Shown here piece by piece: positions 2,115 to 27,518 of a stretch of 64,000 nucleotides of DNA; within the stretch, counting starts at the first letter, position 1, and every line of letters starts with the position of its first letter. Location of the stretch: NCBI GenBank assembly GCA_949927415.1, contig CATLFB010000001.1:248001-312000 (forward strand). The letters are read 5' to 3'. The notes beneath the pieces are model-generated. The model was not told the DNA's origin. It worked only from the letters and a program-made list of their open reading frames with translations, and made no database searches. This DNA is from an uncultured Candidatus Melainabacteria bacterium. Lineage in GTDB: Bacteria > Cyanobacteriota > Vampirovibrionia > Gastranaerophilales > Gastranaerophilaceae. A program made the translations under genes and the position numbers.

Positions 2115-2894
2115 TTGGATACAAAAGAAAGACAAAATGAAGAGCTGGATGCATTACTGATTTCTTTTAAGAACACAAAAGATGAAAAAAAGAGAAGAAT
2201 GCTGCATCTTAGAATAGTTGAAGAAGCAATGGCGCTAGTAAAAAAGATTGCCAATACTATTGCTTTGCAATCAGGGATTTCTAACGAAGACTTAATTCAG
2301 GTGGGTTCACTCGGGCTTATCAAGGCGATTGAATTTTACCGTTTGGATATGAACACTAAATTCAAAACTTACGCAACCTATTTTATCAAGGGTGAAATCA
2401 AGCATTATCTTCGGGATAAAGCATCTATTATTAAAGCACCGCGCGAATTGCAGGAACTTTTGTTCAAAATTAACACTGCAAGAAAAAAACTCGGTGAAAC
2501 CGGAACGGAAGATGCGACATCCGAGCAGATTGCAGAATATTTAGATTTACCGGTTTCAAAAATCAACGAAGTAATTGAGATTGAAAGATGCAAAAGCACG
2601 CTTTCGCTTGACCAGTCATTCATGCAGGATGATGAAGATATTTCGCTTATCGACAAGATTCCGGCGAATGATTATCAGGAATTTATGAATTCTTATGAAA
2701 ACAAGATTATGCTGGCAAGCACAATCCAAAAGCTTCCGGCTGAACTCAGGGAAATTATTGAACTAAGTTATTATCAGGATTTGAATCAGAGAGAGATATC
2801 TGAAAAAATGAATATGTCACAAATGCAGGTATCAAGAAGATTAAAAAAAGCTTTAAGCAAAATGTATGAACTAATAAAAAATAATGGAGATTAA
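2115..2894 (+). CDS. RNA polymerase sigma factor, sigma-70 family (group 3, SigF/SigB-like)
   Basis: A 259-aa alternative sigma factor. Region 2 is recognisable (EDLIQVGSLGLIKAIEFY, then KFKTYATYFIKGEIKHYLRD), region 3 covers the middle, and region 4 ends with a helix-turn-helix (LNQREISEKMNMSQMQVSRR). Region 1.1 is absent, as in SigB/SigF/FliA-type factors. The start is TTG at 2115 preceded by GGAG, with no better ATG. Its stop overlaps by one base the start of the prepilin peptidase gene, so the two are probably translationally coupled. A link to control of pili or secretion is possible but is inference. No anti-sigma factor gene is adjacent. Confidence 0.88.
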   Translation: MDTKERQNEELDALLISFKNTKDEKKRRMLHLRIVEEAMALVKKIANTIALQSGISNEDLIQVGSLGLIKAIEFYRLDMNTKFKTYATYFIKGEIKHYLRDKASIIKAPRELQELLFKINTARKKLGETGTEDATSEQIAEYLDLPVSKINEVIEIERCKSTLSLDQSFMQDDEDISLIDKIPANDYQEFMNSYENKIMLASTIQKLPAELREIIELSYYQDLNQREISEKMNMSQMQVSRRLKKALSKMYELIKNNGD

Positions 2895-3913
2895 TGATGA
2901 ACACAGAACTTATTCTTATTTTTGCTGCCGTATTTACGTTCATAATAGGAACCGTAATCGGAAGTTTTTTGAATGTTGTGGCGCTTCGCGGACTTACTGG
3001 AGAATCAATTGTACTTCCGCCTTCAAAATGCCCGCATTGCAAAAACAAACTTAAACCCTGGCATAACATTCCGATTTTGTCATACCTGTTTTTGGGCGGC
3101 AAATGCGCATTCTGCAAAGAAAAAATCAGCATGCAGTATCCGATTGTTGAACTATTAACAGGACTTCTGGCTGTTGGAACACTGTTCAAATTCGGTCCTT
3201 CTTTTACAGCCGCATTTGTTTTCGTGGTATTTTGCATACTTTTGGTAATGTCGGTTACTGATATTAAAGAAAAAGTTATTTGTGCAGGTCATGCATGGTT
3301 TATGATAATTTTCGGCTTGCTTTACAACATATTCCTGACCTGGTTTACAGTTCAGACTAGTCTAAGTGAAACAGGCGCATTTTTATTTACGCAGAAAAAC
3401 CTGTGGGGGCTTCCGATAGTTAATTCTGTTTTGGGAGTTGTTGCAGGCGTTGTAATTATGGAAATTCTTGCAAACTTTGGAAGATTATTTGCCGGAAAAA
3501 GAGCCTTCGGCGTTGGCGATACATATATTGCGGCAGGTTTGGGTATTTGCTTTGGCATTCACAACTTGCTTGTAATGATTCCGATAAGCATTGTTGTACA
3601 GCTTGCATTTGTGTTGCCGGGATTCTTGAAAAAATTGGCTTGCAAAGGTGATTATCATACTGTTATTTCACTGATATTATTCTTGCTTGCAACAGGCGCA
3701 TTTTCAGTATGCAACTATTCTTTAGGACTGTTTGAAAATACAGTTGTACTTATTGCCGCATCAGTTGTGCTTGGTATAATCGGTTTATACACATGCGTTC
3801 GAATCATCAAAGGCATCAAAGACGGAAATGAATTAACCGTTCTTCCTTTCGGCCCTGCGATGGCTATTGCTGCAGTTATAACAATGCTTCTTTTAACAGG
3901 AGTCTCAGCATAA
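2894..3913 (+). CDS. pilD: Prepilin peptidase (type IV leader peptidase, A24)
   Basis: An integral membrane aspartyl protease that cleaves and N-methylates type IV prepilins and pseudopilins. The N-terminal cytoplasmic domain has the zinc tetracysteine (C46/C49, CPHC; C71/C74, CAFC). The two catalytic aspartates are D123 in TDIKEK and D209 in GVGD. About eight membrane segments are visible. At 339 aa it is longer than the usual 250-290 aa, because of extra C-terminal membrane helices. The start overlaps the sigma-factor stop by one base; a second ATG directly follows. A likely substrate is the pseudopilin at 26.6-27.4 kb. Confidence 0.93.
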   Translation: MMNTELILIFAAVFTFIIGTVIGSFLNVVALRGLTGESIVLPPSKCPHCKNKLKPWHNIPILSYLFLGGKCAFCKEKISMQYPIVELLTGLLAVGTLFKFGPSFTAAFVFVVFCILLVMSVTDIKEKVICAGHAWFMIIFGLLYNIFLTWFTVQTSLSETGAFLFTQKNLWGLPIVNSVLGVVAGVVIMEILANFGRLFAGKRAFGVGDTYIAAGLGICFGIHNLLVMIPISIVVQLAFVLPGFLKKLACKGDYHTVISLILFLLATGAFSVCNYSLGLFENTVVLIAASVVLGIIGLYTCVRIIKGIKDGNELTVLPFGPAMAIAAVITMLLLTGVSA

Positions 3914-26620: not shown

Positions 26621-27415
26621 CTATTTGTAATAATATTCCATATTATCGTGTTCAAGAATATATCTTGAGCACCCCCATCCGGTATAATCCTTTCCGGATC
26701 CGGGATCACAGTCATCAAAAGAATCAGGAAGAATCCGGTCTTTCATAATTAAAAAAACAAACAAATCAACTCCGTACTTATTTGGTTCTTTTGGCCCGTT
26801 CAAGTCATACCACATCATTCCGCAGACATTGTTAAAACCGCCATCATGTGCATTACAGTTTCTTGTCATCGAATCTCTGAACCATAGATAACTTCCGTCA
26901 AGCAGCACCATTTTGTAGTATGCAATACCGGCATCATAATTCATCCCACGATTACTCCCGTTAAGATATGAATATGTTGTAGAAATACAGCCCTCCCCGC
27001 ATTTGCAGTTTCTGGCAATTTTTAACTCCGGAACCAAATTTCTCGCAAATCCCTCCGGACATTTAGCACCATCCGCGTATTCCCAATCCTCAACATATCC
27101 GGATTTGCCAATTGCCATCAAAAACGCCTGATTCATCGTCGAATAAAACTTTTTAACCTTTGTAACAGTTGCCCTTTCTTGATATTTGTTAATAACAGCA
27201 GGCAACGTCATCGCAGCCACAATCCCGATTATACCAAGCGTTATAAGAACTTCTGCGAGCGTAAAAGCATTCTTAGGTAAATGAATTCCACTCTCTGATG
27301 TTAATCTTTCTGCAAAATTTAAAACGGAACAAAGCCGTGAAGAAAGATTTTGATTTTTTAAATTGTCACTAATCCCTTGAGAATAAAGGTCAGCGGATGC
27401 CCCCCCCCCCCGCAA
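26621..27415 (-). CDS. Type IV pseudopilin-like protein
   Basis: A secreted protein with a type III/IV-prepilin N-terminus: a hydrophobic segment of about 20 residues beginning FTLAEVLITLGIIGIVAAMT with the conserved Glu at +5. The residue before the cut is Ala (KNA|FTLAE) instead of Gly. The mature part is about 210 residues, rich in Cys and aromatic residues (CKCGEGC, NCNAHDGG), with no match I recognise. The frame has no ATG before the signal: the only in-frame start is a TTG at 27415 without SD. An ATG at 27440 with AAGAGAAG upstream is one base out of frame because of a 12-C homopolymer, see separate entry. The length of the leader (about 50 aa) is unusual. Confidence 0.8.
   Translation of the reverse strand: MRGGGASADLYSQGISDNLKNQNLSSRLCSVLNFAERLTSESGIHLPKNAFTLAEVLITLGIIGIVAAMTLPAVINKYQERATVTKVKKFYSTMNQAFLMAIGKSGYVEDWEYADGAKCPEGFARNLVPELKIARNCKCGEGCISTTYSYLNGSNRGMNYDAGIAYYKMVLLDGSYLWFRDSMTRNCNAHDGGFNNVCGMMWYDLNGPKEPNKYGVDLFVFLIMKDRILPDSFDDCDPGSGKDYTGWGCSRYILEHDNMEYYYK
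27400..27411 (-). repeat. Poly-G (plus-strand C12) homopolymer at the pseudopilin start
   Basis: Twelve consecutive C on the plus strand (12 G in the gene). From the ATG at 27440, 12 G give MKNQAMTGFAGGGGIR and stop. With 11 or 14 G the reading enters the pseudopilin frame (…GGGASADLYSQ). This fits a slipped-strand phase switch, but homopolymer length is also error-prone in assembly. Confidence 0.7.
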
Positions 27416-27518
27416 AGCCAGTCATAGCTTGATTTTTCATAAAAACTTCTCTTTCTTTTAAATACTTCTTTTTTATATTAAACTATTTTTGTAAATAATT
27501 CAAGATGGAAATTTCAAA

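Follow-up and report, generated by a model that had tools for sequence, protein, structure and literature searches.

We found that a run of 12 G residues separates a start codon from the reading frame of a pilin-like protein by one base in an uncultured Gastranaerophilales genome, and that the same arrangement stands before dozens of pilin-like genes in this genome and in its relatives. The tract is best explained as a simple-sequence-repeat (contingency) switch, in which slipped-strand changes would turn a multigene pilin repertoire ON and OFF, most of it being OFF in the sequenced population; we assign this reading a probability of about 0.68. It builds on the frame arithmetic at the site, the lack of an alternative start, the recurrence of the arrangement across the family and the presence of both ON and OFF lengths among homologous cassettes, each of which was observed directly.

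The G tract and its gene in the window

In the window (the whole stretch of 64,000 nucleotides that was analysed), the 12-G tract occupies positions 27400..27411 of the minus strand and, by its sequence, the frame arithmetic and the number of such runs expected, is a candidate slippage site. It is preceded on the same strand by the start codon and first codons of the cassette (27412..27440; ATG AAA AAT CAA GCT ATG ACT GGC TTT GC), giving a start module of 29 bases from the ATG at 27440 to the tract, in a pattern that recurs at dozens of other loci. A Shine-Dalgarno-like sequence, AAAGAGAAG (27446..27454, minus strand), lies 5 bases from this ATG but is weak and degenerate, whereas most sister cassettes carry AAGGAG or AGGAG. 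The preliminary description of this region had taken 27440 as the sole ATG with a Shine-Dalgarno sequence, put out of frame by the 12-G tract; the frame shift was borne out, but the Shine-Dalgarno sequence is not a good one. At 12 G, the ATG opens a short out-of-frame ORF (27390..27440, minus strand) encoding 16 residues, MKNQAMTGFAGGGGIR, which reads through the tract and then terminates almost immediately at a TGA (27392-27390).

The pilin-like frame extends over 264 codons (27415-26621), with its upstream limit set by a stop at 27424. It comprises an open leader from the tract to the prepilin motif (27266..27399, minus strand), in which an internal Shine-Dalgarno-backed start is absent, and the pilin-like protein proper, from the FTLAEVLITLGI motif to the stop codon (26621..27265, minus strand), the first codon of FTLAEV being at 27265. 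As had been claimed, this frame has no Shine-Dalgarno-backed ATG of its own: neither ATG nor GTG occurs upstream of the motif, and a Shine-Dalgarno sequence is missing at its only TTG (27415, at the tract edge), at one CTG and at two ATT codons. The pilin frame is offset by one base from that of the ATG at 27440, so that 11 or 14 G would join the two. The poly-G observation at 27440/27411-27400 is confirmed.

The window protein has a prepilin N-terminal cleavage/methylation domain, scoring above the curated cut-offs of both Pfam N_methyl PF07963 (24 bits against 21.2) and TIGR02532 (22.5 bits against 16.3). Its structural model (20 homologues; pLDDT 85) has a long N-terminal helix (30-82) and a beta-rich domain, and the best PDB match of the model is the gonococcal pilin 1ay2, at an E value of 0.096 that is below significance. 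The protein does not qualify as GspG, with 23.1 bits against a cut-off of 88.85 for the equivalog profile TIGR01710, and a C-terminal LPXTG sorting signal is absent, the sequence ending in ...ILEHDNMEYYYK. The label "pseudopilin" given earlier was thus right as regards the prepilin signal, although we prefer the wording "pilin-like protein with a prepilin signal". A prepilin peptidase of the same genome lies at 2894..3913 of the window on the plus strand (PF01478, 27.9 bits against a cut-off of 26.5, the match being at G000:C1:251224-251613, or window 3224-3613) and would process these pilin-like proteins.

A start cassette repeated across the genome and the family

In this genome (G000; 2.18 Mb), there are 44 distinct runs of at least 12 G, compared with 0.009 expected under a first-order model built from the window, a homopolymer length far beyond chance. 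Neighbourhoods of up to 3 kb were read around all tracts of at least 8 G. At least 32 poly-G and six poly-C tracts lie in a shared start cassette before one pilin-like family, in the order Shine-Dalgarno sequence, ATG, 7-12 codons (e.g. MKKQAIIEF), G12 (10-13), an early stop in the ATG frame a few codons past the tract (about 0-4 at most loci), a leader free of stops, usually 11 to 83 residues long, and FTLAEVLIT. The 32 poly-G loci have the pilin motif in an open frame downstream, the one clear exception being L057, which has stops in the leader frame. At loci preselected for an open pilin frame, the leaders of this genome contained 0 stops over 1432 codons in that frame, and 77 and 140 in the other two. 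Internal in-frame starts with a Shine-Dalgarno sequence were present in 12 and absent from 86 of 98 leaders in four genomes. Tract length therefore decides whether the start module and the gene share a frame, both at the window copy and at dozens of further loci.

The longest run found, 18 G at G000:C1:388501-388518 (L042), has no pilin or long frame downstream. Contigs C2, C5, C7, C10, C16, C17 and C18 of this genome have an end no more than about 150 bases from a G-tract cassette; the repeats have probably interrupted the assembly, which would make the actual number of cassettes larger than the one counted. At five loci of a relative, G008 (L177, L184, L200, L204 and L205), the G-tract cassette is combined with a conventional Shine-Dalgarno start four codons before the prepilin motif; these pilin genes may be expressed irrespective of the tract, or may be recent gainers of the cassette.

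The same cassette design was found in the sister species, in other genera of the family and in MAGs named Candidatus Gastranaerophilales. The relatives comprised one genome per species, as single consensus sequences and in several cases as metagenome bins; a contig scan for a strain of the same species matched only other Gastranaerophilales MAGs, and IMG/VR scans for strain comparison gave no matches. This genome has 71 prepilin signals; other genera of the family reach as many as 111, whereas most of the order's remaining families have about 10. Poly-G tracts of at least 10 number 63 in this genome and up to 111 in the family, with almost none outside it. Tract number tracks pilin number over 36 genomes of the family (Spearman 0.69), with G025 (83 signals, 2 tracts) and G020 (93 signals, 1 tract) as exceptions, indicating that a large pilin family is possible without tracts. 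G039, from another family of the order, has 88 prepilin signals and zero poly-G tracts of at least 10, so pilin expansion there happened without the switch.

No tract is present in the homologues closest to the window gene, in five other genomes including the sister species, or in its closest paralogue in this genome; such homologues begin M-K-K-G-FTLAEV (e.g. MKKGFTLAEV) and have a Shine-Dalgarno sequence. Either the window copy gained its cassette or the others lost theirs, and the sequences suggest a gain. The preliminary description had named a start elsewhere in related genomes as evidence that would tell against a switch. This is partly what we found, but the tract cassette is present in many other members of the family, so the conventional starts of the nearest homologues do not refute the switch. 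Its main proposal, a poly-G frame switch at the 5' end of the gene, fits all of the evidence, and dozens of pilin-like genes in this genome and its relatives repeat the arrangement.

In G026, which belongs to another genus, loci L302-L318 have a distinct cassette, MADxEIKNGQx-G10-TAA, with a stop right after an almost uniform G10. G tracts were also observed before or within an acyltransferase-3 gene and sugar-nucleotide/phosphotransferase-like, AlgX-like and PMP-repeat surface protein genes (G009 L206:384-1496, minus strand; G034 L250:514-1815, plus strand; G026 L301 and L311). The acyltransferase-3 gene is in frame with its tract, and these non-pilin genes are typical of the classical contingency types.

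At ten loci, the pilin start module contains a poly-C run (Pro codons) instead: L035, L037, L062, L078, L080 and L086 in this genome, and L239, L246, L260 and L261 in G034. All six of the former have a Shine-Dalgarno sequence and a pilin downstream, and most have a short OFF peptide (e.g. MHREDSIITCPPPRQIR). In anchored alignments of poly-C with poly-G cassettes, mean scores were -1.0 inverted, -10.2 direct and -9.1 shuffled in this genome, and -0.3, -11.5 and -10.5, respectively, in G034; when the three tract-adjacent bases were left out, p was at most 0.01 at 5 of the 10 loci, near 0.02 at 2 and not significant at 3. From this reverse-complement likeness, the cassette appears to be in use in either orientation, each end bearing a Shine-Dalgarno sequence, which would account for the presence of CTCC after most poly-G tracts in this genus. 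A role of CTCC as a hairpin sequestering the Shine-Dalgarno sequence was rejected, since complementarity was above that of shuffled sequences but own pairs barely beat swapped ones (p = 0.05-0.18 per genome). A broader proposal, which we consider possible but rather less than an even chance, is that a start cassette of about 60-75 bp (Shine-Dalgarno sequence, short ORF, central G run and distal CTCC) has spread to dozens of pilins in both orientations, inverted copies giving a poly-C run on the coding strand and the Shine-Dalgarno sequence of the other end, and that almost all copies are held one base off, so that one or a few pilins would be expressed at once in a manner resembling antigenic variation, in a gut commensal that is related to cyanobacteria.

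Frame states and the explanations weighed

As we envisage the switch, slippage of DNA polymerase would alter the number of G residues, and that number would join or separate the start module (Shine-Dalgarno sequence, ATG and 7-12 codons) and the prepilin-type pilin-like frame. With 12 G, the ribosome would make the 16-residue peptide and terminate, leaving the window pilin OFF; with 11 or 14 G, the pilin would be ON. Since paralogous pilin genes follow the cassette at dozens of loci, the pilins expressed by any one cell would be a small and changing subset of the repertoire. Slippage would occur within a population, and the proteins would be expressed and located at the surface, where they may act in adhesion or in escape from immunity or phages.

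Phase was scored on unbiased tract samples by a rule that needs an upstream Shine-Dalgarno-backed start; the G026 cassettes, whose starts escaped the motif and start rules, were left out. Only 17 of 120 tract-bearing copies in five genomes were in frame with the pilin, where one third would be expected (p = 2.5e-6), namely 0/30 in this genome, 5/30 in G008, 5/16 in G009, 4/23 in G022 and 3/21 in G034. The window copy is outside the scored 30 because its Shine-Dalgarno sequence is too weak for the rule, and it has the common offset. An additional pilin-like copy of this genome, L077, which lies at a contig end and has a diverged motif, reads in frame. Among the 103 OFF copies, one OFF frame dominates. 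It has a surplus of one base in this genus (60 vs 6 copies) and in G022 (19 vs 0), and is one base short in G034 (18 vs 0).

ON and OFF lengths thus both occur among homologous copies. For example, in G009 the module MQTMIEFT is ON with 11 G and OFF with 12 G, and the near-identical module MQTMKEFT is ON with 14 G, the 11-G and 14-G copies sharing a spacing class; G006 has an 11-G copy that is ON; and in G008 and G001 copies with equal spacing are ON at 12 G and OFF at 13 G. The in-frame copies of G009 and G006 agree with the earlier statement that 11 or 14 G would restore the frame.

In this genus, spacers that need 11, 12 or 13 G for the common OFF state mostly carry 11, 12 or 13 G (permutation p = 5e-5); frame, not length, is the conserved property. 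A preferred tract length alone as the cause of the common frame is ruled out by this permutation and by a simple stationary model, and the log-likelihood rose by 16 when a model with a preferred length and an ON cost was made to penalise the second OFF frame as well, a value that is indicative, as the loci are not independent. These results also count against the slipped-strand switch, in that free slippage predicts one third ON and equal OFF frames, unlike the data, and a preferred length plus an ON cost falls short of explaining the OFF-frame bias. The weak Shine-Dalgarno sequence of the window copy and the intact MutS of this genome count against it as well. Loss of mismatch repair as a cause is ruled out, since this genome and almost all of the relatives encode a full-length MutS. 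Neutral drift in tract length seems insufficient as the source of the bias; selection, programmed slippage or the history of copying may lie behind the dominant OFF frame.

Programmed slippage would mean that the tract is deliberately one base off and that ribosomal frameshifting or RNA-polymerase slippage yields low, roughly constant amounts of every pilin. We judge this unlikely, although it would account for a single OFF frame kept whatever the tract length and across differing upstream spacings, for a default frame that stops shortly after the tract, as in programmed-frameshift sites, and for the lack of ON copies among those scored in this genome. However, the direction of the offset depends on the genus, with one base too many in two genera and one too few in G034, which is unexpected for a single recoding mechanism; relatives contain copies that are clearly ON; and no stimulator was established (pairing between Shine-Dalgarno and anti-Shine-Dalgarno sequences, p = 0.05-0.18).

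The long pilin frames, stop-free at nearly all loci, make it less probable still that history alone is at work, that is, that cassettes were copied in one tract state, slip slowly and belong mostly to silent or decaying copies, since silent copies would decay. Dissimilar cassettes, falling into 24 sequence clusters, also have an equal frame offset. Some flank changes do preserve the frame via single substitutions, with A replaced by G at the edge of the tract; the cassettes of one species resemble each other; and the window copy has a weak Shine-Dalgarno sequence, all as a purely historical origin would allow.

There is a very small chance that an assembly or sequencing error hides a true tract of 11 G and a gene that is simply ON, since short reads and PCR are prone to errors in long G runs and several contigs of the assembly end near tracts. 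However, tracts of 10, 11, 12 and 13 G all show an equal offset, their spacers differing to match, and so do several genomes that were assembled independently of one another, so that a constant technical error is hardly the cause. Least credible is that the run acts as DNA, a G-quadruplex starting gene conversion between pilin copies as in Neisseria pilE, for although the pilin family is large, many of its genes follow a G-rich element and G12 could form a quadruplex, the window tract lies between start codon and pilin, inside a translated start module whose frame it sets by its length and with stop-free leaders downstream, whereas the pilE element lies outside the coding frame.

Significance and comparison with known systems

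Phase variation is best known from pathogens, and among the papers searched none dealt with it in Gastranaerophilales. Under the slipped-strand switch, a large part of the surface repertoire of an uncultured commensal order appears to be given over to phase variation. If this is true, tract states in metagenomes would reveal which pilins are expressed in each population and how they shift with host or time. The constant off-by-one state raises the testable question of how a single OFF frame is maintained. There is also a caution for annotation, as such genes are easily given false starts or called frameshifted, and pilin content may be misread.

Like type IV pilins and type II secretion pseudopilins, the window protein combines a prepilin signal, FTLAEVLITLGI, whose +5 residue is E, with a long N-terminal helix and, in the model, a beta-rich C-terminal domain, and a prepilin peptidase is encoded in the genome. 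It differs from them in that 71 prepilin signals occur in one genome, and in that the leaders of tract-bearing copies extend over 11-83 or more residues after the tract, compared with 4-7 in the closest tract-free homologues. In the poly-G and poly-C contingency loci of Neisseria and Campylobacter, a homopolymer in the 5' coding region likewise sets the frame of surface genes at many loci per genome; the switched genes there, however, belong mostly to differing families (adhesins, glycosyltransferases and modification enzymes), whereas the cassette here is common to members of a single expanded pilin-like family.

Among large surface-protein families under repeat-number control, the nearest is vlhA of Mycoplasma gallisepticum, a paralogous family with repeat tracts whose active state is tied to one repeat number (PMC6258824). 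Its GAA repeats act in the promoter, which is active only at 12 repeats (PMC6258824), whereas the G tract here acts in the reading frame.

In Bifidobacterium breve UCC2003, the sortase-dependent pilus loci bbr_0113 and bbr_1889 carry G10-G12 tracts (Penno et al. 2022, PMC9187656). Their deposited sequence is OFF, two ORFs put in frame gave visible pili, and G-tract lengths are mixed within the population (PMC9187656). That system has two loci with LPXTG pilins and measured slippage, whereas the switch proposed here for Gastranaerophilales involves dozens of prepilin-type (N_methyl) genes per genome, a repeated cassette and a common off-by-one state. Both are found in gut commensals and have a G tract of 10-12 near the gene start, a short upstream ORF with the only good start and an annotated state that is OFF, and the G-tract pili of B. 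breve are the nearest experimental case.
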